From Desulforhabdus amnigena (GTDB lineage Bacteria; Desulfobacterota; Syntrophobacteria; Syntrophobacterales; Syntrophobacteraceae): a DNA stretch of 64,000 nucleotides. Location of the stretch: positions 3,189,001-3,253,000 of the forward strand of contig NZ_BSDR01000001.1 of NCBI RefSeq assembly GCF_027925305.1, given 5' to 3'. The notes beneath the pieces were generated by a model. The model was not told the DNA's origin and ran no database searches. It worked only from the letters and a program-made list of their open reading frames with translations. Positions 1,106 to 37,253 of this stretch are shown here, in pieces; positions within the stretch are counted from its first letter, which is position 1, and every line of letters begins with the position of its first letter. The translations under genes were made by a program, and so were the position numbers.

Positions 1106-1693
1106 TCAGTTGGTCGAAACCGGTTCTCCGGTCGCCGTCGCCACTCGCTGCCGGTAGGCGGCCATGAAGCCGCTCTTCAGCCGGTCCTCGAGGCTCGTCT
1201 TTTTGTCTTCCACGTCCTTCGGACGGACGCCCGCGTCGCTGCGAAGAGGCGGATCGTCGCCGCCGGATGAAGCCTTCGCGGTTTCCGCTCCGGCTCCTCG
1301 GTCCTTGGCGTCCTTGTCGTCGGCGTGAGCGCGGGGCCCGGCCTTCATCATCCGCTCGAAAGCGGCTTCGCTGGCGGCGAAGGCGTCGTCGGAAAGACCG
1401 GCCAGACGGATCAGCTCCTGTTCGCGATCCTCGTCGCTCTCGAATGCCAGCCCGCTCTTTTCGATCTTGCGCAGAAGCTTCTGGGCTCGGCTCCTGTTCG
1501 CGGCGGCCTTTTTCTCCGCCTCCAGTTCCTCGAGTTGCTTCTGCAGGCCGAGAACCTGCTGTTTGAGTTCCTTGTTCTCCCGCTCCAGTTCCTTGAGCCG
1601 GGTCTTGTCATCGGGCGCGGTCCCGCCGCCGTCGTCCTTCTTCTTGGCGGCTTCCGCCGCCCTGTCCTCGGTTTCCTTGTGTTTCTCGTCCAT
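1106..1693 (-). CDS. Nested in-frame scaffold protein from an internal start
   Basis: Met1092 of the polyprotein begins MDEKHKETEDRAAEAAKKKD and is preceded by AAGGAGG with a 7-nt gap, a textbook ribosome-binding site inside the larger gene. Translation from here gives a 195-residue, highly charged coiled-coil protein without the protease. This matches phage lambda, where scaffold Nu3 is made from an in-frame start within protease gene C. Separate scaffold synthesis is an inference, but it would supply the excess scaffold needed for head assembly. Confidence 0.6.
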   Translation of the reverse strand: MDEKHKETEDRAAEAAKKKDDGGGTAPDDKTRLKELERENKELKQQVLGLQKQLEELEAEKKAAANRSRAQKLLRKIEKSGLAFESDEDREQELIRLAGLSDDAFAASEAAFERMMKAGPRAHADDKDAKDRGAGAETAKASSGGDDPPLRSDAGVRPKDVEDKKTSLEDRLKSGFMAAYRQRVATATGEPVSTN

Positions 1694-4600
1694 TGTCGGA
1701 CCTCCTTCAGAGTGGGTTGTCGAACCATCGTTTTCCGCCGCGGCGACCTTCAGGATGCGGGCGTTTTCATCCGCGCCTTTGCGGTCGAGGAGTCCGAGCC
1801 CGGTGAAAGTGACGCCGTGGAGGATTTCGTAGACGGGTTGCCCCTGGAGCTCGCCGCCTTTGTTCTTGCGCAGGTGGACGCAGTAATCGCTCTTCGAAAC
1901 GACGCGTTTGCCGCAGATCGAGCACTCGCCTTCCTCGTAGTCGCATTCCATGGAGACCTGGGAGATGATCCCTTTGCGGATGAGCTTGTAGGCCAACTGC
2001 GCGTGCGGGCTGTCGGAGACATAGAGTTCGCCCGCGCACTCGATCCGGCCGCCGCTTTCGTCCTCCACGTAATCCGCCCCCACAATGCCGCCGACGATGT
2101 CGGTGAAATCCTGGGAATGCTTCAGGTCGATCTTCTTGTTGATCGCAGTCATGTAGCGGGCGGCCAGTTCGTCTGGGGTGAAGTGGTCGCCGTTCTTGTT
2201 CGTGCCGGCCCGGCAGAGGATGAAGGTGAACTGCGGATCGCCCGCGGCCTGGTCCAATGCCGCCGCTTCGGTCTGGAGCCCAGCGAACGTATCGAACGAC
2301 AGCTCCACGGGGAACGAGGTGTGACATGCCGCCGGTGCCCGCGTATCCGCTTTAGAGCGCGCCGCACCGCGTGATTTGGAAGCGACGAAGAGCAGTTCCT
2401 GGGCGTGTTTACCTTCCCGGCCGATGTCCTTGGCGATGTTGTAGTCCACCTCCATGCCGCGGACACGGACGAGACCGTAGTGCTCGGCGAATATCTCCTT
2501 GATTTCCTCTTCCCGCGGGAAAGCCCGGTCGCGGTATGACATGAGCACCGTACCGTACTTGCCCCGGGCGTCGGCTGCCATCGTCTCCATCAGGGAACGG
2601 ATCGATTCCTTGGTGTAACGCGTCCGGGACGGATAGTTGCGGCGGGGATTGTCCTGGAGTTCCTTGTCCGCCCAGCGGGTCATGAGACCCTCGATGAAAT
2701 GCAGGGAGTCCTCGTAATCGTTGCTGCCGAACTCGGTGACGTAGGGCGGGTCCAGATACAGAACGTCCGCGCCGAACCGCCGGACCGCTTCGGCCGCATC
2801 CAGGTTGAACGCCTTGCACTCTTTGCCGTTGTCGAAGACCAGCCGGTTGAGCTGGCCCACCGAGCGCCGGAACGACTCGATGAACTTGGACAGCGGCGGA
2901 TTGGAGAGCTGGGATTGCTCCAGGCTGGCATCCGTGTCGAGATCGGCCCGGCGGTGCATCTTGGACCGCGAGAACTGACCGAAGGCGCTCTTCGCCTTGA
3001 CGGTGGTGCCGAGCGCGGCCAGCGCCAGATCTTTCTTGTAGCCGTGAAGCTTCTGGATGTTCGCCCAGACCTGGTCGAGCCACCGGAGCACCGGCTTGGT
3101 GTAGTAGTAGCCGTAGAAGTGATCGACGATAAACGTACCCGCGTCCGCATTGGGTGCGAGGATTCGGTCCACGTCCTCGTCGCTCAGCGTCTCGCTGGAG
3201 TTCTCCACCACGGCCCGCGCCAGATGGTGGGGATATCGCAGGAGATCGTTGGCGATGACTTTCAGCCCTTTGCGTTTGAAGTGATAGGCGACGTTGGCCC
3301 CACCCGAAAAAGCATCGAGGATGCTCTCCGCTTCCTTGGGGACATGGCTTTCGATCCAGCCGAGCATCAGGTATTTGCTGCCCATGAAACCGGTGACGCG
3401 GACCGATTCCGCTTTCCCGGCCTGGCAGCTCAGGAGGTCCAGCGATTCGCCCAGCGGCGCGTCCGCCAGGGCGATCAGGTTCTCCTCCACGCGCAGGGCG
3501 GCATCGACGGCCCGTGCGGCTTCGTGCTTGTCGATCCACTCCTTGGCTTTTTCCATGGTCCAGCCGTCCGGGTTCTTCTCCGTCTTGCGGACGAACCGGT
3601 AGGCCTGCAGCACCATGGAGCGCGGATTGCCGCCCTCGGGCACGAACTTTTTCTTCAATCGCCCGATGATGATCGCAACGCCGTCGACGCCATCCAGGGG
3701 CTTGCGGCGGAAGCTGTCGGGTTCGAACTCGTCCGGGTTCCGGACGCGGAAACGTACCTCGTTCTCGGTTTCCTCCCAGACGGCTTCTGCCCGCAGGCTG
3801 TCCTCTGCGGACGCCTTGGCGGACCGCTCCGCGCCCTCGGCCTTGCGGCAGATGAACAGACGCTCCTTGGCGTGGGACGCCTCACCGTGCCGGGATGTGA
3901 TGGCGTAATGGTGATCGTGGGAGCGCATCGACGAATCCCGTCCCAGGGAGGCGATGATCCGCCGCATCTCCGATTCGTTCGGATAGGCATGGTCCCGGTA
4001 GGAAATGAGCCAGTGCGGGATATGCTTGGCGTTGCCGAGGAAGGACTCGAAGAACTCCGCGGCGTTGGCGCGGGTCACGGTCTTGTGGTCGGTCTCGTAG
4101 TGCTTGGTCTTGGAGTCCTCGACAAGGGTCAGCCCCTCCCAATAGGTCATCAGCCCTTCCACGAAGTGGTAGGATTTCTCGTAGTTGGTGGTCGAAAACT
4201 CCGTGGCGTAGGGCGGATCGAAATAGGCCAGATCGGCCTTGGCCTCCGGCAGGAAGTCGTTGATGTCCTTGCGGGATGCCTTGCACTCCTTGCCGTTGTC
4301 GAAAACGAGGGCGTTGATGCGGGCCACGTTCTTGCGCAGCCGCTCCTTGAATTCCTCCGGGGTGTCCTCGCGCTTGCCGTAGCGGGTCGACGACGAGAAA
4401 TGCCCGAAGCCGCCCTTGCCGGACATGCAGGTCTTGCCCAGGGCGAAGAGAGCGATGTCTTTCTTGAAACCCGAGAGTTTGTCGATGTTCGACCGTATCG
4501 TGTCGATCAGGCCGTGGACGCCCTTGGCGAAGAAGATGCCCTTGAAGTTCTCCCGGACGAAGGTTCCGGCCTTCGGGTTGTCCGCGAGCAGCGCCTCCAG

Positions 4601-4966
4601 GTCCTCATCGGAGAGATGCACCTTGTCGTTCTCGATGATCGCCCGGGCCGCGTGGTGGCAGTAGCGCAGCCGGTCGTTGGCCAGGACCCGCAGGCCCTTG
4701 GTCTTGTACATGTAGGCCACGACCGCCGAACCGGAAAACGCGTCGACGACGGATTCCACGCCGTCCGGGGTGTGCTTCCAAATCCAGTCGACCAGCTTCT
4801 GCTTCGAGCCGATGTAGTTGGTGATGTATTTAGGCCGCTCTTCCGGCGACGGCTCCTCGGCAGCCGCCTCGGCCTGGGCCTCGAGCGCCTCGAAGTCCAG
4901 GTCCAAGGCGGCGTCCGTTTCGAGGAGGAACGCCAGCCGTTCACGGTCGGTTGCGAAAAGCTCCAT
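1106..4966 (-). CDS. Giant head polyprotein: two D12-class DNA adenine methyltransferases fused to prohead protease and scaffold
   Basis: A single uninterrupted 1286-residue frame. Residues 46-380 are a D12-class N6-adenine methyltransferase (SAM loop DAFSGSAVVAY at 75-85, catalytic DPPY 250-253). Residues 400-480 are a linker containing RRKPLDGVDGVAIIIGRLKK. Residues 523-865 are a second, homologous methyltransferase (DAFSGGANVAY 551-561, DPPY 739-742). Residues 910-1075 look like a herpes/HK97-fold prohead protease, with likely catalytic His950 and Ser1005 and an inserted zinc knuckle (Cys1015, Cys1018, Cys1029, His1031). Residues 1090-1286 are a charged coiled-coil scaffold. Protease-scaffold fusions are known; two methyltransferases in the same chain are unusual. 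The protease would be expected to process the chain during prohead maturation. The gene has a copy of the phage promoter-like element about 105 bp upstream. Confidence 0.85.
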   Translation of the reverse strand: MELFATDRERLAFLLETDAALDLDFEALEAQAEAAAEEPSPEERPKYITNYIGSKQKLVDWIWKHTPDGVESVVDAFSGSAVVAYMYKTKGLRVLANDRLRYCHHAARAIIENDKVHLSDEDLEALLADNPKAGTFVRENFKGIFFAKGVHGLIDTIRSNIDKLSGFKKDIALFALGKTCMSGKGGFGHFSSSTRYGKREDTPEEFKERLRKNVARINALVFDNGKECKASRKDINDFLPEAKADLAYFDPPYATEFSTTNYEKSYHFVEGLMTYWEGLTLVEDSKTKHYETDHKTVTRANAAEFFESFLGNAKHIPHWLISYRDHAYPNESEMRRIIASLGRDSSMRSHDHHYAITSRHGEASHAKERLFICRKAEGAERSAKASAEDSLRAEAVWEETENEVRFRVRNPDEFEPDSFRRKPLDGVDGVAIIIGRLKKKFVPEGGNPRSMVLQAYRFVRKTEKNPDGWTMEKAKEWIDKHEAARAVDAALRVEENLIALADAPLGESLDLLSCQAGKAESVRVTGFMGSKYLMLGWIESHVPKEAESILDAFSGGANVAYHFKRKGLKVIANDLLRYPHHLARAVVENSSETLSDEDVDRILAPNADAGTFIVDHFYGYYYTKPVLRWLDQVWANIQKLHGYKKDLALAALGTTVKAKSAFGQFSRSKMHRRADLDTDASLEQSQLSNPPLSKFIESFRRSVGQLNRLVFDNGKECKAFNLDAAEAVRRFGADVLYLDPPYVTEFGSNDYEDSLHFIEGLMTRWADKELQDNPRRNYPSRTRYTKESIRSLMETMAADARGKYGTVLMSYRDRAFPREEEIKEIFAEHYGLVRVRGMEVDYNIAKDIGREGKHAQELLFVASKSRGAARSKADTRAPAACHTSFPVELSFDTFAGLQTEAAALDQAAGDPQFTFILCRAGTNKNGDHFTPDELAARYMTAINKKIDLKHSQDFTDIVGGIVGADYVEDESGGRIECAGELYVSDSPHAQLAYKLIRKGIISQVSMECDYEEGECSICGKRVVSKSDYCVHLRKNKGGELQGQPVYEILHGVTFTGLGLLDRKGADENARILKVAAAENDGSTTHSEGGPTMDEKHKETEDRAAEAAKKKDDGGGTAPDDKTRLKELERENKELKQQVLGLQKQLEELEAEKKAAANRSRAQKLLRKIEKSGLAFESDEDREQELIRLAGLSDDAFAASEAAFERMMKAGPRAHADDKDAKDRGAGAETAKASSGGDDPPLRSDAGVRPKDVEDKKTSLEDRLKSGFMAAYRQRVATATGEPVSTN

Positions 4967-5100: not shown

Positions 5101-5135
5101 AGGGGGAATCAGGAGATGCGGCCCGACTTTTTGAT

Positions 5136-5164
5136 TTGACACGAAATGTGCCGGGTGTTATCAT
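5136..5164 (+). promoter_or_regulatory. Sigma-70 promoter of the restriction-modification cassette
   Basis: TTGACA at 5136-5141, a 17-bp spacer and TATCAT at 5159-5164, about 50 bp before the first cassette gene and facing it. A near-consensus housekeeping promoter, unlike the phage elements, so the cassette can be expressed in the lysogen. Confidence 0.7.
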
Positions 5165-5211
5165 TCATTGTCGTTTCGTGGCGAGGACGCGAGCATGTGC
5201 AGAGGATTCCG

Positions 5212-5421
5212 ATGGACCGAACAAAGTGGTTGACCATAGAGGAACTGGCCGAATACCTGAAGATGGGCCGGACCAAGCTTTACCGCATGGCGCAGGAGGG
5301 GGAAATCCCGGCATCCAAGGTCGGCAACCAATGGCGCTTCGACCGGGAGGAAATCGATCAGTGGATGAAAAACCAACGACCTGTCAGCGCCGGTCAGAGG
5401 CAGGAAGGTGTTGCCAGATGA
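5212..5421 (+). CDS. Excisionase-family helix-turn-helix DNA-binding protein
   Basis: A 69-residue protein that is essentially one winged HTH of the excisionase/MerR-like type: WLTIEELAEYLKMGRTKLYR (residues 5-24), then GEIPASKVGNQWRF and a recognition-type DREEIDQWM. I chose the ATG at 5212 because the domain starts there; the frame extends upstream without useful sequence. Its stop overlaps the methyltransferase ATG (ATGA, 5418-5421), implying translational coupling. Inferred role: transcriptional control of the restriction-modification genes, like a C protein but of a different family, or target recognition. Confidence 0.75.
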   Translation: MDRTKWLTIEELAEYLKMGRTKLYRMAQEGEIPASKVGNQWRFDREEIDQWMKNQRPVSAGQRQEGVAR

Positions 5422-7628
5422 TCGAGAGAAATTTCGACATTCCGTTCATTGCCGACCTTGCCCTTCGAGAAAAACAGATTCAACAGAACTACCGGCCTAT
5501 AATCGCGGTGCATAAATGGTTCGCTCGCAGACCGGGAACGTTATTTCGGGGTCTCTTGCTGGCCGAGTTTTCAGAACGACCTATGCGCGAGGCCTTTTAC
5601 GATGCCAATGAGTTTGCGGGGCGCAGAATCGCCGACCCGTTCATGGGTGGAGGCACGCCTCTATTGGAAGCGAACCGTCTTGGTTGCGATGTGGTGGGTT
5701 TCGATATCAACCCGATGTCCTACTGGATCGTGAAGCAGGGAATCGAGCACCTCAGTCTTGCAGCCTATGACGAGGCTGCGGATTCACTGCGTGCCGAGCT
5801 TGAAAAAGAGATCGGCCACCTTTACCGAACAAAATGCTGTTTGTGTGGCAGCGAAGACGCCCACATAAAGTACTTCTTGTGGGTGAAAAAGATCGTCTGT
5901 CAGGGTTGCCGAAAGACTGTAGACCTTTTCCCGGGCTATCTTCTCTCTTCGGATGCAAGGCATCCGAAAAACGTCTTCGTATGCCCCTCATGCGGGCAAT
6001 TGTCGGAAACCGCCGATCGAAAGAATCCCGGTCGATGTGGTTACTGCGGAGATTCGCTTGTAGTGGACGGACCGGCGGCTCGTAACCGTTGCCGGTGCCC
6101 CCACTGTGGAGCAGAAAATAGATTCCCGAACCCATCTCTTGGACCTCCAACGCATCGTCTTTTCGCCATCGAGTATCATTGCCCGACCTGTAAGAGCAGA
6201 CATGATGGACGTTTTTTCAAGGCGCCTGACGATCAAGACATCGCCCGTGTGACGGAATCCGAGAAACGATGGTCGACAACACGACCTCGTTTTGTTCCCG
6301 ACGATGAGATTCCTTCTGGCGACGAGACAAATCGTCTCCATCGTTGGGGATATAGGCGGTATCGGGAAATGTTCAACGCTCGCCAACTCCTGGGCCTAGA
6401 ACTTTCCGCACGGATCATTTCTAAGATCACAGATGAACGTGTCAGAAACGCGTTAGCAACCAATTTCTCCGATCTCCTGCGCTACCAGAATATGCTGTGC
6501 CGTTACGACACAATGGCGCTGAAGTCCCTGGATATATTTTCTGTACATGGGTTCCCGGTTGGGCTCATCCAATGCGAATCCAATTTTCTCGGGATCGTGG
6601 AAAAAGGGAAAAATATATGCGTTGGTAGCGGGGGATGGAAAAACATCACAGAAAAATATCGTAAAGCAAAAGCTTACTGTGATGACCCATTCGAAGTACG
6701 CCACAAAGGGCGAAACAAAGAAATAATTCCGATCAGGGGCGAATGGATCGGCGACCGTCTTAACGGTGGACAAGTCGGGCGACACAGGATTGTGGAAATT
6801 CACTGCGAAAATTCGGCATCCGTGGATTTGCCTGAATCCTCGCTCGATGCGGTTCTTACCGATCCTCCTTACTTTGGAAATGTCCAATATGCGGAATTGA
6901 TGGACTTCTGTTACGTATGGTTGCGAAAGTTGATCGGCGAGAAGGAGAAACCGTTTCAGCACCCATCGACGCGGAGCCAGCATGAATTAACCGGCAATGT
7001 AGACATGGGAAGAGATCTGGAATATTTTACGGAGGGCATCTCTTCCGTATTCCAGCGAATGGCAAAAGCCCTGAAGCCAAAGGCCCCGTTAGCCTTCACT
7101 TATCATCACAACACCATCGAAGCCTACTTTCCAATTGCCGTGGCCATCCTTGACGCCGGATTGGTTTGTTCCGCTTCCTTGCCTTGTCCGGCGGAGATGG
7201 GAGCTTCCATCCATATCAACGGCACGGGTTCTTCCATTATCGACACTGTTTTTGTATGTCGAAAGACCGGATTCGTTTCAAAACAAAGTTTGCCTTGTTT
7301 AGCCGCAGGTGTCGCCGGTCTGGTATGCCAAGACTTAGCCGAGCTTCGGAAAGGAAATGTTAAGCCGTCGATTGGGGACACTCGTTGCATTGCTTATGGC
7401 CATCTCATTCGCTTGGCGATATGGAATCTGCGGAGCACTTGGGACAATTCAACCAATACATCAAAGAAACTTTCAGCGGTGGCCGATTGGCTCCGAGCAT
7501 TCGGCGGGTGGCCTAAAGTTGAACGGCACCTCAATGAATTAAATGGAACTTGCTCTCACGAACCGCTGCTCACTGTCCGAGAAAATACCATGGATTACGG
7601 AGTCGAATATGCCCACGTTTCCTTTTGA
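5418..7628 (+). CDS. DNA adenine methyltransferase with inserted zinc-ribbon region (DUF1156-like)
   Basis: A 736-residue enzyme. The N-terminus (YRPIIAVHKWFARRPGTLFR, residues 25-44) is the signature of DUF1156-type methyltransferases. SAM motif I is ADPFMGGGT (72-80) and catalytic DPPY is at 482-485. Between them are several CxxC pairs (about 140-143, 161-164, 189-192, 207-210, 225-230, 255-258), suggesting stacked zinc ribbons for DNA contacts. Expected reaction: SAM-dependent N6-adenine methylation that protects host and prophage DNA from the adjacent nuclease. The start is fixed by the ATGA overlap with the HTH gene. The cassette looks less GC-rich than the flanking phage genes, consistent with separate acquisition. 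Confidence 0.85.
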   Translation: MIERNFDIPFIADLALREKQIQQNYRPIIAVHKWFARRPGTLFRGLLLAEFSERPMREAFYDANEFAGRRIADPFMGGGTPLLEANRLGCDVVGFDINPMSYWIVKQGIEHLSLAAYDEAADSLRAELEKEIGHLYRTKCCLCGSEDAHIKYFLWVKKIVCQGCRKTVDLFPGYLLSSDARHPKNVFVCPSCGQLSETADRKNPGRCGYCGDSLVVDGPAARNRCRCPHCGAENRFPNPSLGPPTHRLFAIEYHCPTCKSRHDGRFFKAPDDQDIARVTESEKRWSTTRPRFVPDDEIPSGDETNRLHRWGYRRYREMFNARQLLGLELSARIISKITDERVRNALATNFSDLLRYQNMLCRYDTMALKSLDIFSVHGFPVGLIQCESNFLGIVEKGKNICVGSGGWKNITEKYRKAKAYCDDPFEVRHKGRNKEIIPIRGEWIGDRLNGGQVGRHRIVEIHCENSASVDLPESSLDAVLTDPPYFGNVQYAELMDFCYVWLRKLIGEKEKPFQHPSTRSQHELTGNVDMGRDLEYFTEGISSVFQRMAKALKPKAPLAFTYHHNTIEAYFPIAVAILDAGLVCSASLPCPAEMGASIHINGTGSSIIDTVFVCRKTGFVSKQSLPCLAAGVAGLVCQDLAELRKGNVKPSIGDTRCIAYGHLIRLAIWNLRSTWDNSTNTSKKLSAVADWLRAFGGWPKVERHLNELNGTCSHEPLLTVRENTMDYGVEYAHVSF

Positions 7629-8640
7629 AGTCAGTTTCGAAGACATTCTCAAAAATCCAGAAGGCTACGTCGATGCCGTATTTTCCTGTCTCGAATCCGA
7701 GTTTCTGGTCATGCCGAAAGGAGCTGGGTTTGTCGAATACCCCGTTTTCGAGCACGGCTATGAAGCGTTGAAATCAGGGACAATGGGGTTTACTAAATTC
7801 GAGCCGACGTCTGTTCTTTCTGTAACCATACAGGAGCCGATTTCCATTGTCGTGCTGCGGACCATGCTTGGCTTCACCCCTCCCGAATGGGGCTATGTGA
7901 CGAGTCAAAGAACCGGTGTTGATGTTTCACAGGGATTTGTGCGTTCTCTTGACCGTAAAATCCGCATGTCTCCTGAAACACCGCTGAACTTCAACGGTGT
8001 CACCAGGGAACGGCTTGAAGCCCTGATCAAAACGGCATGCATGTTGCTCACGGAGGGTGTTCCGGAAGTAGACGTTGATCAGCTTCACCGGCTCGACAAG
8101 GCTGACACGAGACGCGGTATCGAAAGCCTCTCAAATCTCGCTGGCATGGGCGTTCCATACGCCATGTTGCTTTATGAGCGCTTTCTCGGAAGGCCATTCG
8201 CCGGGCATCGTGATTCGGTGAGCGAATTGGTCGGTGATAGTCTTGAATCGGCCATTGAAGAAGTCTTATCCAAGTCCGGAATCAGTTTCCGCAAAACCAA
8301 GCGCGCCGAACGTATCGAGGGGTTCGATCAAACTCCGGATTTCATTATACCGAGCGAATTTAATCCGCAAATTATCATAGAAGCCAAAATCACCGAGGAC
8401 GATGGAACAGCTCGAGATAAAGTGACCCGGATACAACATCTTGGAGAGCTGAGCCTTGCTGGCCGTCCGTCAGACAATCCAAAATACGAAGTCATCGCGT
8501 GTATCGGCGGCCGTGGTTTTGGGGTTCGCCGCGAGGACATGAAGAAAATGATCCTTGCAACGCGTGGAAAGGTCTTCACGATGAAGACCCTTGACCGGCT
8601 TGTTGATAACACGCGGCTAAAAGAATTCCGTACAAAATAG
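7609..8640 (+). CDS. PD-(D/E)xK restriction endonuclease
   Basis: A 343-residue protein starting MPTFPFEVSFEDILKNPEGY. I chose the ATG at 7609 because GGAG lies 6 nt upstream; an earlier ATG at 7543 would overlap the methyltransferase far more. The nuclease core is C-terminal: a helix with Glu213, Pro243-Asp244 (TPDFIIP) and Glu258-Ala-Lys260 (IIIEAKITEDDGTARDK), a standard PD-(D/E)xK metal site. The N-terminal 200 residues match nothing I recognise and may be the specificity domain. It overlaps the methyltransferase by 20 bp, forming a compact restriction-modification operon with the HTH gene. It ends 1 bp from the convergent MuF gene. Confidence 0.8.
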   Translation: MPTFPFEVSFEDILKNPEGYVDAVFSCLESEFLVMPKGAGFVEYPVFEHGYEALKSGTMGFTKFEPTSVLSVTIQEPISIVVLRTMLGFTPPEWGYVTSQRTGVDVSQGFVRSLDRKIRMSPETPLNFNGVTRERLEALIKTACMLLTEGVPEVDVDQLHRLDKADTRRGIESLSNLAGMGVPYAMLLYERFLGRPFAGHRDSVSELVGDSLESAIEEVLSKSGISFRKTKRAERIEGFDQTPDFIIPSEFNPQIIIEAKITEDDGTARDKVTRIQHLGELSLAGRPSDNPKYEVIACIGGRGFGVRREDMKKMILATRGKVFTMKTLDRLVDNTRLKEFRTK

Positions 8641-8641
8641 A

Positions 8642-10207
8642 TTATTCGCGTGTTTTCCGCCATTTTTCCGCCAGTTCCTCACCGACCGCCTTTTCCAGCG
8701 CCTTGACAAGCTGCTGCTTGTTCTTGAGCGGGCCGATGTGGTGCTTCTTCTTGGCGTCGATCAGGGTCGCGCCTTGGAGCGCCTTGTGATCGACGCCGGG
8801 TTCCAACTCGTCGAGCAGGTCGATCACGTCCTGCTTGGTCATGTTGAGGGAGACGCCCTTGGCTTTGGCCATCTCCTGCAGCTCGACCACGGTGAGGTCA
8901 TGCAGCCCGCCGCTCGGCGGAATCTTCTTGAGCTGGTCCGCCAGTTGCTGCGCCTGCTTGAGGGACGCCTGTTTCTGCGCCAGGAGTTGGATCAGGTCGT
9001 CCTTGGTGCGGAGCAGGCCGATCTTGTGTTGTTTGAGCTTGGCGTCGAGGGCGGCTCCGGAGAGGGTGGAGTGGTCCACGCCCGGCTCCGCCGCGTCGAG
9101 CAGATGGATGAAGTCGGCTTTGGTCCGGGCGATGGAGACGCCGTTCTGCTTGGCCAGGGTCTGGAGTTGCTTCACGCTTAGAGTGTTCAGGTCGGCGATC
9201 TGTCCGCCTTCGAAGGCTGCCTTGAGCTTCGCGTCTTCCGCCGCCTTGGCCTTCGCCTGCTCTTCGATGGCCTGGGGCGGGATGATGCACGCGGCGGGTT
9301 CAGCCGCGGCTTTCGCCCCCAGCTCTCCTCCGCAGATCACCAGGGGCCAAGCGACCACGCTTGTGCAGCGGCAGTTGGGATGGGCCGGTTGCTGGGGAAA
9401 GCGGTTCGTGTCGAACACCTTGCCGTCCAGCGGCCCGCAGACGGGGCAAACCCGCTCGTCCTCCATGGTCATCCATTCGAGCTTCCGAACTCCGACCCGG
9501 TCGTGGAACTTGAGTCGCCCCTGGTTATGGGCGCGCAGGACCTCAGTGCGGGCAATCACCTCCATGCGGTACTGGGCCTTGGTGAACACCTTGGAACCGG
9601 CGTAGCGGAAGGACTCCGGGTCTTTCACCACGCGCCCGAGGTCGCGGACGATGTCCTCCACGCCCTTGCCGGTGGCGATGCCGCCCATCACGACCCGCTT
9701 GATGCCGTCGGCCAGCTCGCGGTTGACGTCGCCGGCCAGGACCAGGTTGTAGTTGGTCATGAAATCGAGGGCATCGGTATCCACCAGGGTGAACACTCGG
9801 GTGGCGAGCTTGTCGATGCCCTCCGGGGTCAAGTCGCGGTAAAAGGGAAGCTGGGCCGCGGCGAACTCGTCGATGCCTCGGTAGATGCCCTGGCGGAAGG
9901 ATGTTTTGGCCGTCTTCCGGAAAAGCAGCGTCTGCTCCCGGTGCAGGCGGCTCGTGGTCTCCTGGATGTCGGCTTGGAGTTTCTTGAGACCTTCGAGAGC
10001 GGCCAGCTTGTTGTCGGGGAGGGAGCCGAGACTCTTGTAGCGGAGGATAGCGCGGCGGACCTCCTCCTCGGCCCCGGCAAGCATCGCGGTCAGATCGGCG
10101 ACCGTTTGCTCCGTATAGAGATTGCGAGCGTGGACGCTCTTCTCCGTGGCCAGGCGGATAGCCTCGGCTTGAGAGAGCGGAAGCTTGGCCGCAAGCGCAC
10201 CGATCAT
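8642..10207 (-). CDS. MuF-like minor head protein with C-terminal SAP/HeH-like repeats
   Basis: A 521-residue protein. The MuF domain ends in VCPVCGPLDGKVF and HPNCRCTSVVAWPL, the conserved Cys pairs of Mu gpF minor head proteins. The last ~200 residues hold about four repeated helix-extended-helix units of the type LxxLaKxxGVSxxRTKxDLIxLL, resembling SAP/Rho_N/HeH DNA-binding modules. MuF proteins sit at the portal inside the head; a DNA-binding tail could contact packaged or ejected DNA. I start it at the ATG overlapping the portal stop (ATGA, 10204-10207) rather than the GTG six codons upstream. Confidence 0.85.
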   Translation of the reverse strand: MIGALAAKLPLSQAEAIRLATEKSVHARNLYTEQTVADLTAMLAGAEEEVRRAILRYKSLGSLPDNKLAALEGLKKLQADIQETTSRLHREQTLLFRKTAKTSFRQGIYRGIDEFAAAQLPFYRDLTPEGIDKLATRVFTLVDTDALDFMTNYNLVLAGDVNRELADGIKRVVMGGIATGKGVEDIVRDLGRVVKDPESFRYAGSKVFTKAQYRMEVIARTEVLRAHNQGRLKFHDRVGVRKLEWMTMEDERVCPVCGPLDGKVFDTNRFPQQPAHPNCRCTSVVAWPLVICGGELGAKAAAEPAACIIPPQAIEEQAKAKAAEDAKLKAAFEGGQIADLNTLSVKQLQTLAKQNGVSIARTKADFIHLLDAAEPGVDHSTLSGAALDAKLKQHKIGLLRTKDDLIQLLAQKQASLKQAQQLADQLKKIPPSGGLHDLTVVELQEMAKAKGVSLNMTKQDVIDLLDELEPGVDHKALQGATLIDAKKKHHIGPLKNKQQLVKALEKAVGEELAEKWRKTRE

Positions 10208-11847
10208 CCCCCGCACTCCCGGCACGCTACCTGCCGGGACGTCGGTTCCTTCTCCCGGTCGGAGCCGCGTTCCATCGCGGCGGTCTTCAGGTCGAAGAAG
10301 CGGCAGACCGGGGTGTCGAAGGTGGTTTCGTTTCGTTGGACCCGGCAGTGGTTGAGATCACCGTCGAAATGCACACAGTCATCACAGACGGCGGCGATGC
10401 TTGCGCGGGCGAACGGCCCGGCCCACGATGCCTCGGCGCGACTTCCCGTCGGGTTCTTCGCCGGATCGAGGCCGAGCATCTCCTGGGCCGTCTCGACGCC
10501 CATGATTCCGGCGGTCACCATATCGACGATGGGCTTGATCTGCTTTTCGTCGAGCATGTCCACCGAGCGCTTCTCGGTCTCCCGGTTGGCCGCCTCGATG
10601 TCGGGATCGAGGTCCATCTTCAGTTGCAGGCTCGAACGGCTGATGAGCTTGCGGTCGTAGAGCTCGATGAGCAGGCGCTTGAAATCGACCGCGTCCGAGG
10701 GATCGAGGTCGTTGAACAGGAACTGGAGCGTCTTGTCTTCCCAGCCTTTGAGCTCCAGCCAGTCGTTGAATATCCAGTTCAGGATGCTCCGGGCGGCCTG
10801 CTTGATCTCCCGGATCATCACCAGCATCTTCTGGAGGCTCACCGAGGCCGTGGCGAAGTTCGGGCCGTCCCCGGTCACCAGCGACCGCGAGAGGCCTAGC
10901 GCCACGACGATGTCCTCCTTCACCTCCTTGACCTTGTCCTCGACGTTGAGGACCTGCCCCTCGGTGCCGTGGGTCTCGACCGTGACGTAGAAAGGGACGA
11001 CCAAGCCGCTCTTGAGGTCCATCTTGTTGACCATGTCCCGGACCTGTTCGAGCATCTTCTGGTCGGGCATGACCATCTTCTGGCCGAACGCGCCACCGAC
11101 TTTGAGAAGCCTGAATGGCGTGGCCCAGCGCTTGGCGATGGCCTGTTCGGCCCGGCGGTAGTCGCGGAGGAGTTCGATGGACTGGAACGCGGGAAGGACG
11201 AGCGAGTTGCCCCGTGGCGAGAAGGCCGGCGCGTCCCACTTGAGATGGAGCACCTGCTCCACGGGAAGGTCCAGTCCCTCGTCCGCGGCGGGATTGTCTT
11301 CCGGCGTCTGCCGGGCTTCGACGAGCCGCCCTTGGGCGTACTTGACCCTGACCGACACCGGGTTGACGCAGACCAGTTCCTCCAAGTCCTTGCCGTCCTT
11401 GGTGTAGCGTTTGAATCCGACGGCGTCGCCCTTGACCAGAAGCTGGAGAATCATGTCCTTAACGAACTCGGAGACGCTCAGGCGGTCGGCGACATCCACG
11501 GCCTCCCATTTCACCTTCTCGTCATCGCCCGCGATCTTGATTTCTTCGCCCACGGCGAAGGTGCGCCAGGAGTTGACGCAGTTCTTCACCAGCGGTTCTT
11601 CGAGGTAGTACTCCCAGGCCTTGCGCGCCCGGTCCTCCCAGGAAGCCGGGATCGCTTCGGAGGCGTTGACCTTGCTGAACACGGACGGGTCCAAGGCCGC
11701 GGCGGCTGCCAGAGGAACGAGCACCAGACCGTCCGCTGAAAGCGGCGTCGGCTCAGCGCCCGATCCGGATGCCGGGCTGTCGGGTGTCGAGTTGCTTCGT
11801 GTTTCCACCGGGGTCCTCTCGGTTTCTTGCCCTTGTGGGCGCGACAT
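10204..11847 (-). CDS. Phage portal protein
   Basis: A 547-residue protein with portal-family features: a WEYYLEEPLVKNCVNSWRTF N-terminal helix region, a long alpha/beta core with SPRGNSLVLPAFQSIELLRD, and the helical ATASVSLQKMLVMIREIKQA followed by LQFLFNDLDPSDAVDFKRLL. It lies between the large terminase and MuF, the standard order. The dodecameric portal forms the DNA entry vertex. Oddity: the C-terminus is Cys-rich (CDDCVHFDGDLNHCRVQ, then VCRFFD and CRECGG), suggesting a zinc-binding tail. A promoter-like element lies about 37 bp upstream. Confidence 0.88.
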   Translation of the reverse strand: MSRPQGQETERTPVETRSNSTPDSPASGSGAEPTPLSADGLVLVPLAAAAALDPSVFSKVNASEAIPASWEDRARKAWEYYLEEPLVKNCVNSWRTFAVGEEIKIAGDDEKVKWEAVDVADRLSVSEFVKDMILQLLVKGDAVGFKRYTKDGKDLEELVCVNPVSVRVKYAQGRLVEARQTPEDNPAADEGLDLPVEQVLHLKWDAPAFSPRGNSLVLPAFQSIELLRDYRRAEQAIAKRWATPFRLLKVGGAFGQKMVMPDQKMLEQVRDMVNKMDLKSGLVVPFYVTVETHGTEGQVLNVEDKVKEVKEDIVVALGLSRSLVTGDGPNFATASVSLQKMLVMIREIKQAARSILNWIFNDWLELKGWEDKTLQFLFNDLDPSDAVDFKRLLIELYDRKLISRSSLQLKMDLDPDIEAANRETEKRSVDMLDEKQIKPIVDMVTAGIMGVETAQEMLGLDPAKNPTGSRAEASWAGPFARASIAAVCDDCVHFDGDLNHCRVQRNETTFDTPVCRFFDLKTAAMERGSDREKEPTSRQVACRECGG

Positions 11848-11883
11848 TCGCGCCGTGTGGCGGGGAAAGCCCGCCCCTGGGGT

Positions 11884-11913
11884 TATCTACCGGAGGCGGG
11901 GAAGGAACGTCGG
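11884..11913 (-). promoter_or_regulatory. Phage promoter-like element, copy 2
   Basis: TATCTACCGGAG-N13-GTCGG on the plus strand; one substitution (ACC to ATC) from the consensus. About 37 bp upstream of the portal gene. Confidence 0.65.
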
Positions 11914-11963
11914 TGGGCGGGTTGTTCGGGCTGGGGAGGTCAGACCGTATCCGGAAATATCCC

Positions 11964-11993
11964 TTGACACTTAGAGACAAAACCGGCTATATT
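11964..11993 (+). promoter_or_regulatory. Sigma-70 promoter of the ATPase-phosphoesterase pair
   Basis: TTGACA (11964-11969), an 18-bp spacer and TATATT (11988-11993), facing the ATPase gene. A housekeeping-type promoter, so the pair can be expressed in the lysogen, in contrast to the surrounding minus-strand phage genes. Confidence 0.7.
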
Positions 11994-12044
11994 TATTCCC
12001 GGACAAGGCAGAAACCGGAAAGAACCATGGCCAGGAGTGACCCT

Positions 12045-13358
12045 ATGATAGAGACGATCAAATCCATCATCCTGGATTTCCAGGAAACCCGACTGGAGAC
12101 CGGGGTGCCCCGGCGTTTGCGTATCGAGGCGGTCCACGGCAAGGCCGCCGTCTGCATCGGGGTGCGGCGGAGCGGCAAGTCGACATACATGTTCCAGGTT
12201 ATCCAGCGGCTGTTGGACGGTGGGGTTCCCCGGCAGAACATTCTGTATCTGAACTTTTTCGACGACCGCCTCCACAACCTGCGGCAGGACAATCTCGGCC
12301 TGATCGCCGAGGCCTATTACTCCATCTACCCGGAGAAGAAAAACACCGAGACGATCTACTGCTTTTTCGACGAGATTCAGGCAGCCCCCGGTTGGGAGCC
12401 CTTCGTCGACCGTTTGATGCGCACGGAAAAATGCGAGGTGTATCTGACCGGTTCGTCAGCCAGAATGCTGTCGAAGGAGATCGCCACGCAGATGCGCGGG
12501 CGGGCGCTTTCGTGGGAGATGTTTCCGTTTTCGTTCAGGGAATTCCTGGACTACAAAGGAATCGCGAGCGAGGGCGCGCTGTCGACGAAAAAGCGGCTCC
12601 TCGTTCAAAAGGCCTTCGAGGAATACTGGGAGGCCGGCGGCTTCCCCGAGGTCGCTGGCCTTGGCCGGAACCTGCGGATCAAGACCCACCAGGAATACTT
12701 TCACACCATCCTGTTTCGGGATTTGGTCGAGCGCCACGACGTTTCACACCCGAAGGCGGTGACCGATCTGGCGCACTGGCTGGTGGACAACACCGCTTCG
12801 CTTTACTCGGTCAACAGTCTCACGGGCTATCTCAAGTCGCTGGGCCATAAGGCTCCGAAGTCTGCGGTGTCGGACTACCTGGAATGGTTCGAGGACGCAT
12901 ATTTCCTGTTCACCGTGCGCATATTCGACCCGTCCCTCGCGCGTAGCAACACCAATCCGAAAAAGGTCTACTGCATCGATCACGCACTGGTCATTTCGGT
13001 GTCGTCGGGAATTCTGGTCAACTCCGGCCATCTCCTTGAGAACCTCGTGTTCACCGCGCTCCGGCGTCTTCATCCGGAAATCTACTATTACAAGACCAAG
13101 GCCGGCCGGGAGGTCGATTTCATCGTCCCGATGCGAGGCCGGCCGCGGATGCTGGTCCAGGTGTGCGAGTCTCTGGCGGAGCCGCAAACGCGGAAACGGG
13201 AGACTGCGGCCTTGAGTGAGGCGATGGCAGAACTGGGTCTCTCCACCGGAACCATCGTGACCCGGAACGAGGACGAGCGGATCGAGGCCGGCGGCGGGAC
13301 CATCGAAGTGGTCCCGGCATGGCGGTTCCTCCTCGAACTGCCGGAATCTACGGAATAG
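12045..13358 (+). CDS. AAA-family ATPase with DUF4143 C-terminal domain
   Basis: A 437-residue protein of the AAA_14/DUF4143 type. Walker A is GVRRSGKST (39-47), Walker B IYCFFDEI (104-111), and LTGSSARML (134-142) is the typical sensor segment. The C-terminal DUF4143 region contains REVDFIVPMRG then LVQVCES, the position where relatives have a nuclease-like E-x-K; here it reads Q-V-C, so a nuclease site would be degenerate. I prefer the ATG at 12045 (AGGAG 7 nt upstream) over 12027. It is followed after 4 bp by the phosphoesterase. Function is unknown; a phage-exclusion role is inferred from moron context only. Confidence 0.8.
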   Translation: MIETIKSIILDFQETRLETGVPRRLRIEAVHGKAAVCIGVRRSGKSTYMFQVIQRLLDGGVPRQNILYLNFFDDRLHNLRQDNLGLIAEAYYSIYPEKKNTETIYCFFDEIQAAPGWEPFVDRLMRTEKCEVYLTGSSARMLSKEIATQMRGRALSWEMFPFSFREFLDYKGIASEGALSTKKRLLVQKAFEEYWEAGGFPEVAGLGRNLRIKTHQEYFHTILFRDLVERHDVSHPKAVTDLAHWLVDNTASLYSVNSLTGYLKSLGHKAPKSAVSDYLEWFEDAYFLFTVRIFDPSLARSNTNPKKVYCIDHALVISVSSGILVNSGHLLENLVFTALRRLHPEIYYYKTKAGREVDFIVPMRGRPRMLVQVCESLAEPQTRKRETAALSEAMAELGLSTGTIVTRNEDERIEAGGGTIEVVPAWRFLLELPESTE

Positions 13359-13362
13359 CTGC

Positions 13363-14349
13363 ATGAGATTCTTGCTGATCAGCGACACACACGGAAGGCT
13401 CGGGGTGATCGACGAACTGACCGACCGGGTCCGGGCCGATGCCGTGATCCACGCCGGGGACTTCGGGTTTTTCGACGAAGGGAGTTTCGAGCGCCTCTCG
13501 GACCGGGAGCTTCGTCTTCACGTCGCGCATTCCGATCTGCCGCGAACCGAACGGGACCGAATCCTGGCGCTTTCCCGAAAGGACATGATCAGAACGGCGA
13601 GGGAGCACCGTTTGCTTGGCGCGTTTCAATTTTTCCTCGAAGGGATCGAATCGTTCCATGTTCCCGTTTACGCCGTCTGGGGAAACCACGAGGACAAGGA
13701 GGTCGTCGAGCGGCTCTTCCACGGCGATGTCGCTGTAACAAACCTCCACATCCTGCATCACCGGCGTGGGTACCGGGTCGGACCGGCGTTTATCTCCGGG
13801 CTCGGTGGAAATGTGCTTCCCGGCTCGAAGATGATGCAACGGCCCATCGCAGGCGGCGGAGGGAAGATATGGAGCGCGCTTTCCCAGTTCTCCGATTTGA
13901 TACAAACCGTCGAAAGGGATGCGGCCCCGGCCATGGTGCGCATCTTCGTTTCCCATGTCAGCCCGGGAAAGGAGCCTTTCGTGGAACTTATCGGTGCCAG
14001 GACGAGGGCGGATTTCACCGTCAGTGGACACATGGGAGCGCCCGCCAGCATGGTCTGGAATGCGTTCGCGGTAAGCACCGTCGAGGAAGCGGAAAAACGG
14101 CTTCGGGATGGTTTCGACGCCGTAAGAGAATCGTGTCTGGACACCGCCAAAACGGATGCTTCATGGGTTGCCGAGACACTCGAATTCATCGGCCGGGTTC
14201 CGGAAGATACCATCGACCTTGGAAGGGGCGTCAAAGCGCCCCGCTGGTATCGGCGGATGACGCATATCAACCTGCCAGACGCTCATGTGGGCTACGCCGT
14301 CCTCGATATCGACGAGACCGGCTCGAAGCTCCAGACCTTCCTCAGATAA
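13363..14349 (+). CDS. Calcineurin-like metallophosphoesterase
   Basis: A 328-residue protein with the full dimetal motif set: SDTHG (7-11), GD (32-33), GNHE (107-110), a later VSHVSPG and SGHMGAP. It should hydrolyse a phosphoester (nucleotide, cyclic nucleotide or nucleic acid end); the substrate cannot be read from sequence. It starts 4 bp after the DUF4143 ATPase, so the two are almost certainly co-transcribed and probably act together. The last 8 bp overlap the convergent large terminase gene. Confidence 0.82.
   Translation: MRFLLISDTHGRLGVIDELTDRVRADAVIHAGDFGFFDEGSFERLSDRELRLHVAHSDLPRTERDRILALSRKDMIRTAREHRLLGAFQFFLEGIESFHVPVYAVWGNHEDKEVVERLFHGDVAVTNLHILHHRRGYRVGPAFISGLGGNVLPGSKMMQRPIAGGGGKIWSALSQFSDLIQTVERDAAPAMVRIFVSHVSPGKEPFVELIGARTRADFTVSGHMGAPASMVWNAFAVSTVEEAEKRLRDGFDAVRESCLDTAKTDASWVAETLEFIGRVPEDTIDLGRGVKAPRWYRRMTHINLPDAHVGYAVLDIDETGSKLQTFLR

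Positions 14350-34227: not shown

Positions 34228-34231
<4 letters not shown>
33800..34231 (-). CDS. Small HTH protein associated with the serine recombinase
   Basis: A 143-residue protein with a central HTH (YADLARLGYVTRARITQIMN) followed by LLNLAPDIQEAILFLP, a pattern commonly found in small proteins encoded directly after large serine recombinases. Its ATG overlaps the recombinase stop (ATGA, 34228-34231). A role as recombination directionality or accessory factor is plausible but unproven. Confidence 0.75.
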
Positions 34232-35840
<1,609 letters not shown>

Positions 35841-35844
<4 letters not shown>

Positions 35845-36377
35845 TCGTTCCTCCTCTCGGGTTTGCGGCTCCCGCCCTTGGCCGCGGCATCGGCGATACC
35901 GAAGAAGAGGAACCCGTTCCATTTGCTCCCGGTGACCTCCTGGGCGATGGCTGAGAGGGACTTGTACCGTCGGCCGTCGAACTCGAAGCCGTTGTCGAGT
36001 ACCTTGACCACAATGTCGCGGCCTCGGAACTCGCGGGCGAGCAGAGTCCCGGGCAGCGGCAGCCTCGGGTCGTGCGACGGGGATATGCGGCTGGTCGCCG
36101 TTCTCGCCTTGATCTCGGCGGAACCCGAGGCGACCGGATCACGCGGAGACCGCGTTCTCAGGTCGGCGTCATTGGCCAGTTCCTCAGCTCTGCGCCGGGC
36201 CCGCTCCGAAAGGTCACCCTCCGCCAGAGCCTGAATGCGCCAGGCGATTCGCTTGCGAAGAAACTCCTTATGGTAGGAGCGGGTCTCTTCTCCGAAGACC
36301 TCGAGGTACTTGTCCCGGAGTTCTCCGACGGTCATCCGGGAGAGCCCCTGGACCTCTTGATACGTTGTTGCTTCCAT
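35841..36377 (-). CDS. DUF2924-like protein
   Basis: A 178-residue protein. The N-terminal part (LSRMTVGELRDKYLEVFGEE, then FLRKRIAWRIQALAEGDLSE) and the C-terminal RLPLPGTLLAREFRGRDIVV with SLSAIAQEVTGSKWNGFLFF match DUF2924, a family typically encoded just before large serine recombinases in prophages and islands. AAAGGAGGTTTCGG precedes the ATG at 36377; the stop overlaps the recombinase start. A role with the recombinase is inferred. Confidence 0.85.
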
Positions 36378-37177: not shown

Positions 37178-37253
37178 TGGCTCCCCGGGACGGACTCGAA
37201 CCGCCAACCTAGTGGTTAACAGCCACCCGCTCTGCCGATTGAGCTACCGGGGA
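37178..37253 (-). tRNA. tRNA-Asn (anticodon GTT)
   Basis: A 76-nt cloverleaf with encoded CCA: acceptor TCCCCGG/CCGGGGA, D-arm GCTCAATCGGCAGAGC, anticodon stem-loop GGTGGCTGTTAACCACT, T-arm GGCGGTTCGAGTCCGTC. It borders the prophage and may be near the attachment site. Confidence 0.95.

Follow-up and report, generated by a model that had tools for sequence, protein, structure and literature searches.

Why does a three-gene cassette of the restriction-modification (RM) type stand among the head genes of a prophage, on the strand opposite to theirs? The question is raised by a stretch of 64,000 nucleotides from Desulforhabdus amnigena (positions 3189001-3253000 of a single-contig chromosome of 4.54 Mb), which is referred to below as the window. 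On the basis of sequence comparisons we consider it likely that the element is a phage-borne, Type II-like RM cassette at a cargo site in the head operon of a phage family. The segment, its genes and the two phage genes next to it are listed here with their window positions; HTH stands for helix-turn-helix and L098 is the nearest relative of the locus.

5130 to 8663, plus strand: foreign segment of 3,534 bp, delimited by blastn against L098 and by lower GC (guanine plus cytosine) content
5136 to 5164, plus strand: promoter TTGACA-N17-TATCAT with TG before the -10 box, from a promoter scan
5212 to 5421, plus strand: DNA-binding protein of 69 aa, HTH_17/excisionase family, MAD1-like (Pfam, NCBIfam, PADLOC)
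5418 to 7628, plus strand: DNA methyltransferase of 736 aa, DUF1156/HmaB-related, in the order motif I, zinc-rich insert, DPPY
7609 to 8640, plus strand: PD-(D/E)xK nuclease of 343 aa, assigned from homologue starts, alignment A1 and the predicted fold
8642 to 10225, minus strand: MuF head protein truncated to 527 aa, with homology to relatives ending at about codon 521
1106 to 4966, minus strand: polyprotein with D12 methyltransferase stretches and a head-protein-like C-terminal part, the next conserved gene past the cargo site

The layout given in a preliminary description of this DNA was recovered throughout. The three genes are joined by start/stop overlaps, the HTH and methyltransferase genes sharing an ATGA and the methyltransferase and nuclease genes overlapping by 20 nt; all three open frames are intact, and they run against the minus-strand head genes on either side (MuF, portal, the terminase gene TerL and the polyprotein). 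The promoter also lies where it had been placed, with TTGACA at 5136-5141, a spacer of 17 nt and TATCAT at 5159-5164, and agrees with the consensus at 11 of 12 positions. It is the best of three promoter-like hits, a count that by itself does not exceed chance, since shuffled sequences yield 2.8 ± 1.6 hits at a threshold of 9/12. In L007 and L038 the box TTTTTGATTTGA...TGTTATCATT has been conserved ahead of the HTH and methyltransferase genes (with TTGATG as -35 in L038); it is not visible upstream of this pair in L002, and a related promoter precedes an orphan HTH gene in L153. GC content amounts to 0.50-0.55 in the four 1-kb bins that contain the segment, against 0.58-0.67 in the other bins of positions 1-37000. 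An own promoter and foreign composition inside a phage operon are features of a moron.

A moron is, however, added between phage genes without loss of any, and this does not describe the locus. In blastn comparisons homology to L098 ends at window position 5129 (L098 6170) and restarts at 8664 (L098 2354), so that the segment stands where L098 has 3,815 bp of its own phage sequence, which rules out a simple insertion between genes. Replaced with respect to L098 are MuF codons from about 522 to 1527, a gene of 156 codons and, except for its last codons, a gene of 115 codons. The earlier statement that the cassette is wedged between MuF and the polyprotein is therefore right as to location and wrong as to a clean insertion, since a MuF gene of 1,527 codons lost its 3' two thirds in the exchange and two genes downstream of it went as well; the truncation of MuF is a point absent from that description.

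The same operon can be compared among related phages. The lengths of the intervals that separate its conserved genes were taken from as many as 36 sequences (the window, 32 viral contigs and three prophage stretches of whole genomes). More than 500 bp lie between TerL and portal in 12 of 27 cases, and the 115-codon gene is set apart from the polyprotein by such a distance in 5 of 14, as against none at the control junctions portal-MuF (0/36), MuF-156 (0/19), 156-115 (0/18) and polyprotein-next gene (0/10). The window, L238 and L239 have no recognisable 115-codon gene and are likewise occupied before the polyprotein, which brings the occupied loci at this place to eight. Contigs found twice were counted once; the intervals are not all independent, because some remaining pairs are near-copies (L118/L119, L232/L233, L229/L122). 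The following cargo was assigned:

L107 and L110, before the polyprotein: AbiE
L117, before the polyprotein: AbiEi, Hsp20 and a PAS-SpoIIE protein
L112, before the polyprotein: PemK and an RmrA-like XRE-IrrE protein
L238, before the polyprotein: ParE
window, before the polyprotein: the RM pair of the cassette
window 11871 to 14349, plus strand, between TerL and portal: AAA_14/DUF4143 ATPase (PDC-S01-like, 2.5e-108) and a metallophosphoesterase
L103, between TerL and portal: AbiEi, with pieces that look AbiEii-like by eye
L237, between TerL and portal: retron III-A
L235, between TerL and portal: viperin-like gene (pVip-like)
L236 and, by eye, L239, between TerL and portal: ParE
L238, between TerL and portal: C5 methyltransferase

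No match was obtained for the cargo before the polyprotein in L232 (Pfam and PADLOC) and L239 (PADLOC), nor in the scan of the TerL-portal cargo of L100; the TerL-portal cargo of L122, L229, L232 and L233 lay outside the family scan. Variable cargo thus occurs between two conserved genes in related phages, as in a phage hotspot, and the site before the polyprotein is, as judged from its predicted gene content, one of two sites which carry exchangeable, mostly defence-like cargo in this phage family. The idea that each relative holds a different cargo across the whole interval of 4 kb was rejected, as most of this interval is an extension of MuF and variation is confined to the part before the polyprotein. 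Candidates for new systems are the cargo stretches L100:2933-4697, L122:4031-5397, L229:8637-10001, L232:16844-17766 and L239:6023-7335.

The two enzymes of the cassette are a unit that occurs far beyond this operon. For a scan of a genome collection the best 80 of 344 methyltransferase relatives were kept, a choice which favours close ones, and seven loci on viral contigs were added, giving 87. In 77 of the 79 testable loci, namely those on contigs reaching at least 600 bp past the methyltransferase gene, a nuclease homologue adjoins it; none was found beside the methyltransferase in L020 and L024, and in some loci, for example L013, L036 and L073, the nuclease match is fragmentary or in pieces. 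The methyltransferase-nuclease pair is hence a widespread unit of adjacent genes, conserved as a pair as expected of a Type II RM system, and with the intact frames of the window this disposes of the concern that only decayed fragments would be met elsewhere. A tree of 80 methyltransferase sequences with 20 phylum labels requires 35 label changes (minimum 19, shuffled mean 47); the labels thus show some clustering and some mixing, a pattern that agrees with horizontal transfer without proving it. Relatives of the pair on plasmids comprise 126 records, all below 60% identity; in the 15 rows listed the value does not exceed 31%.

A second copy of the locus allowed a look at selection. The contig L001 (3,860 bp, from another assembly) has the same junctions as the window, so that the arrangement predates this particular chromosome. 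Its 29 differences comprise eight in the left flank of 156 bp, 19 in the segment and two in the right flank of 170 bp, the flanks being 95% and 99% identical to the window. The changes within coding sequence comprise 18 synonymous ones and a single nonsynonymous one, where about 77% nonsynonymous would be expected of random single changes. Twelve of the 18 synonymous changes fall within one tract of 67 bp, probably a single recombination event, and without it the ratio is still 6 to 1. We regard these counts as signs that the cassette is under purifying selection and maintained.

These data bear on a first rival explanation, according to which the prophage is defective: the RM system would have landed in a head gene that was useless or was killed by its arrival, and the host would now retain it as a defence island of its chromosome and not as a travelling moron. 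MuF has indeed lost two thirds of its length and two neighbouring genes are gone, while among the 25 MuF relatives 15 have a closed frame and 14 of these measure 1509-1528 aa (L103: 503 aa); a related prophage with full-length MuF in the same chromosome and the recovery of the pair from 80 kept genome-contig loci as against only seven viral ones point the same way. On the other hand, the shared junction and near-identical flanks of the second assembly, the open frames of TerL, portal, polyprotein and replication genes, the large left frames that look tail-like by eye, and the existence of relatives without the MuF extension speak against a dead prophage, and we hold this explanation to be possible, though doubtful.

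The extension itself may be dispensable: L103 lacks it together with both small genes and has no cargo at that place, and it was not found in L236, L238 and L239 either. Where present it is conserved to roughly the same degree as the remainder of the protein (44-86% identity by segment, 15 sequences), and no toxin domain was detected in it, HipA_C reaching 12.9 bits at a cut-off of 30.5 and no other family being assigned. An interpretation as a polymorphic toxin was thus unsupported. L098:793-6190 is an intact example of this region, with a MuF of 1,527 aa, of which about 1,000 aa make up the conserved extension, and then two small genes without a family match. The related prophage in the same chromosome (L138, G000:C1 ~157000-170000) has a MuF of 1,525 aa and no TerL-portal cargo.

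The methyltransferase was described earlier as zinc-ribbon-rich and DUF1156-like. Its six CxxC pairs were recovered; the DUF1156 assignment by Pfam remains below the cut-off (18.0 bits against 24), and NF042963 gives 98.8 against a cut-off of 1000, while Pfam N6_N4_Mtase is reached with 27.6 bits (cut-off 26.7). Alignment A2 contains 40 sequences, the window and 39 relatives with 59-76% identity to it, and defines three elements on the plus strand:

5628 to 5717, plus strand: S-adenosylmethionine-binding motif I/II region ADPFMGGGT...GFDINPM, residues 71-100
5835 to 6191, plus strand: zinc-ribbon-rich insert with six CxxC pairs, C140...C258
6861 to 6872, plus strand: catalytic motif IV DPPY, residues 482-485, invariant

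Residues D73, P74, F75, G77-G79, D96, N98 and P99 are invariant in A2, as are nine of the twelve insert cysteines, the remaining three being present in at least 90%. The fold model (mean predicted local distance difference test, pLDDT, 86.4; predicted template modelling score, pTM, 0.86) places the long insert after the second core strand, the strand order being read by eye. Searches with the sequence against solved structures returned generic methyltransferases and chance-level zinc proteins only, Foldseek gave no match at E <0.001 with the model, and the VIA rows were methyltransferases of many kinds. From the family and the DPPY motif the mark is probably N6-methyladenine.

The nuclease frame opens at ATG 7543 (365 aa); the start is most likely ATG 7609, giving 343 aa, since homologues begin there. 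No Pfam family lies above cut-off, and a sequence search against solved structures found no match. Alignment A1 and the predicted fold indicate an active site of the PD-(D/E)xK type:

8338 to 8388, plus strand: putative catalytic core D244...E258-A-K260, with D244, A259 and K260 invariant and E258 in at least 90% of A1

The preliminary description called the N-terminal half unrecognised and suspected a new specificity. By sequence it is indeed unrecognised; the whole predicted fold (pLDDT 86, pTM 0.53) is nearest to BstEII (9ibq; VIA Z 10.2 over 244 residues, root-mean-square deviation, rmsd, 9.5) and BsoBI (1dc1; Z 9.1, 245 residues, rmsd 9.0), which makes a Type II enzyme more likely than a new architecture. 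The C-terminal catalytic part alone aligns with PspGI (3bm3; Z 8.6, 129 residues, rmsd 3.2). Because of the large rmsd and the low pTM the placement of the domains is uncertain and the likeness in fold is a lead and not a proof of kinship; likeness to PspGI, EcoRII and BstEII was not taken to name a target site.

At this point a second rival explanation has to be considered, in which modified DNA is the substrate of the nuclease, or the two enzymes bring about an exclusion like that of BREX (bacteriophage exclusion) systems instead of classical cleavage at unmodified sites. The kinship of the methyltransferase with HmaB/DUF1156 and PglXI enzymes of multi-gene systems (PMC12839542) would agree with it, as would the relatives of the HTH gene that precede BrxF. 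Since only two genes are conserved, no ATPase or helicase lies within the replaced segment and the nuclease fold is nearest to Type II enzymes, we consider it quite improbable.

The leader gene is not tied to this pair. Its product matches Pfam HTH_17 (E 1.9e-20) and PADLOC mad1 (1.5e-12) and reaches 74.1 bits with NCBIfam MAD1 (cut-off 80); it is of the excisionase type, as had been noted, and not an Xre-type C protein, HTH_3 being absent from the 10 families listed for it. The HTH gene precedes the pair in only 4 of the 84 loci whose upstream sequence is long enough to tell (L001, L002, L007 and L038) and is missing in 80, so the trio proposed to be sought elsewhere is widespread as regards the pair and rare as regards its leader. 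From the matches listed, 70 HTH loci were collected, 14 of them without a next frame of at least 70 aa; among the 56 scanned, which include the window and G028 (= L038), the next gene encodes BrxF in 13, and Type I methyltransferase and mad2 models match in four and six, sets that may overlap. Many of the other next genes are non-defence genes, by eye including response regulators and housekeeping genes; the HTH family is therefore not confined to defence. On its family, its occurrence in 4 of 84 loci and the presence of BrxF and other genes next to its relatives, the proposal of a control-like protein in the sense of a dedicated C protein was rejected. Small frames directly before the methyltransferase gene resemble a winged HTH in L033 and a ribbon-helix-helix protein in L091 (by eye).

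Further features of the prophage concern its other modification genes and its edge. The polyprotein matches Pfam MethyltransfD12 in three stretches (150.7 bits) and phrog_27806 over residues 524-1278 (1375.9 bits); prophages of G006 and G069 have a frame of about 800 aa at its position. In the left arm a C5 cytosine methyltransferase gene directly follows an HTH_17 gene (L136:6400-7566; G000:C1 ~3155400-3156566). A tRNA-Asn gene (37178-37253) lies near the GC-rich prophage edge, with a large serine recombinase (integrase, 34228-35922) beside it.

Phages often carry protective methyltransferases, and a third rival explanation would have the cassette serve the phage against its host, the methyltransferase shielding phage DNA from restriction by the host and the nuclease breaking down, during lytic growth, the DNA of the host or of rivals. 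The C5 methyltransferase behind an HTH_17 gene and the D12 domains of the polyprotein would suit such a role; the position on the opposite strand with an own promoter, outside the late operon, and the many genome contigs with the same pair would not, and we judge it very improbable.

According to the reading we prefer, that of a phage-borne Type II-like RM cassette, the lysogen would transcribe the three genes from their own promoter against the head operon, and the HTH protein would probably bind and regulate this promoter. The methyltransferase would mark the DNA of host and prophage at a fixed sequence, the nuclease, given its pairing and predicted fold, would cut incoming DNA lacking the mark, and host and prophage would thereby become resistant to other phages. 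The remaining short MuF, from which the cassette displaced the 3' part together with the two small genes, retains its MuF domain. The term self-contained RM-like unit seems justified in view of the own promoter, the intact frames, the signs of purifying selection and a phage site at which relatives carry defence-like cargo. What the sequences themselves establish is the anatomy, the pairing, the conservation, the replacement and the recurrence of the site; the enzymatic activities, the target and the regulation are deduced from these.

Several observations weigh against this reading. Within this head operon the cassette was seen in two sequences, the window and L001. When L001-L080 and L091-L097 were compared with the proteins of the phage, L001 alone had the phage's MuF, portal or TerL next to the pair, many of these stretches being short. 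The pair is without match in named phages (tblastn, E 1e-5 and 1e-2), and the seven viral-contig loci reach at most 64% identity. The DUF1156 score below its curated cut-off, a weak Foldseek match to BstEII (E 7.5e-3) and the rmsd and pTM values given above soften the assignment of both enzymes. No family was assigned to the cargo in 5 of 12 TerL-portal intervals (four unscanned) and in 2 of 8 intervals before the polyprotein. Finally, L103 may be decayed or badly read, because its TerL is in pieces, and the conservation of the MuF extension where it is present implies that its loss may cost the phage something.

A more far-reaching version of events is tentative and, in our estimation, rather unlikely: a swap of weapons, in which a MuF extension delivered with the virion and two small genes were given up for an RM system guarding the lysogen, with the HTH protein as a mobile regulator across systems. 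That the extension is an effector is a guess. If the swap were true, a factor for the newly infected cell would have been exchanged for a guard of the lysogen, and the HTH protein would control unrelated methylation-based defences (the pair, BREX with BrxF, Type I RM and C5 methyltransferases) by way of a promoter-operator of a common type.

The locus is of interest in three respects. In a phage family that has been little studied, two sites for defence cargo lie within the head operon, and unknown cargo can be sought there, as has been done in P2 and P4. A methylome should readily reveal the target of the widely conserved methyltransferase-nuclease pair. Members of one small HTH family, finally, stand ahead of several different methylation-based defence operons. 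We found no description of the cassette or of the two cargo sites in the literature searched, a search which did not extend to REBASE and most subscription journals.

Comparison with known systems allows a classification of the cassette. It resembles Type II RM systems in the adjacent methyltransferase and PD-(D/E)xK nuclease genes, the lack of a helicase or ATPase in the segment and the alignment of the whole nuclease with BstEII and BsoBI; it differs in its 736-aa, DUF1156-related methyltransferase with six CxxC pairs and in the HTH_17 leader of a few loci. With the BREX-related Hma systems centred on DUF499 it shares a related methyltransferase with a long insert between core strands, and DUF1156 enzymes of BREX-related systems are described in PMC12839542 as N6-methyltransferases with a target-recognition insert after core strand 2. 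The methyltransferase of the cassette is, in contrast, shorter and paired with one small nuclease instead of a DUF499 ATPase and a helicase, neither of which lies within the three-gene segment, to which the search for partners was confined. The small HTH gene directly before a methyltransferase gene recalls MADS, a system for which the names of NCBIfam and PADLOC models served as the source; the methyltransferase is only weakly mad2-like (5.8e-8), MAD1 stays below its cut-off and the segment holds no further genes of such a system. Long MuF proteins with a C-terminal extension followed by small genes, as in the relatives, are reminiscent of MuF proteins and MuF polymorphic toxins as described in PMC5576092; unlike those toxins, the extension is conserved in the 15 sequences compared, contains no recognised toxin domain and is lost in the window. 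The arrangement of the site comes closest to the antiviral hotspots of P2 and P4, loci of about 1-5 kb with a high turnover of defence cargo between conserved genes, the P2 site lying between gpA and gpQ (PMC9122126). Here, too, variable, mostly defence-like cargo lies between two conserved phage genes; the differences are that two sites lie within the block of head genes and that part of a structural gene had to make way for one cargo. The locus thus combines known parts in a new way, with an RM pair of Type II-like character as cargo of a P2-like kind of hotspot, in another phage family and within its head operon, where the end of a structural gene was lost.

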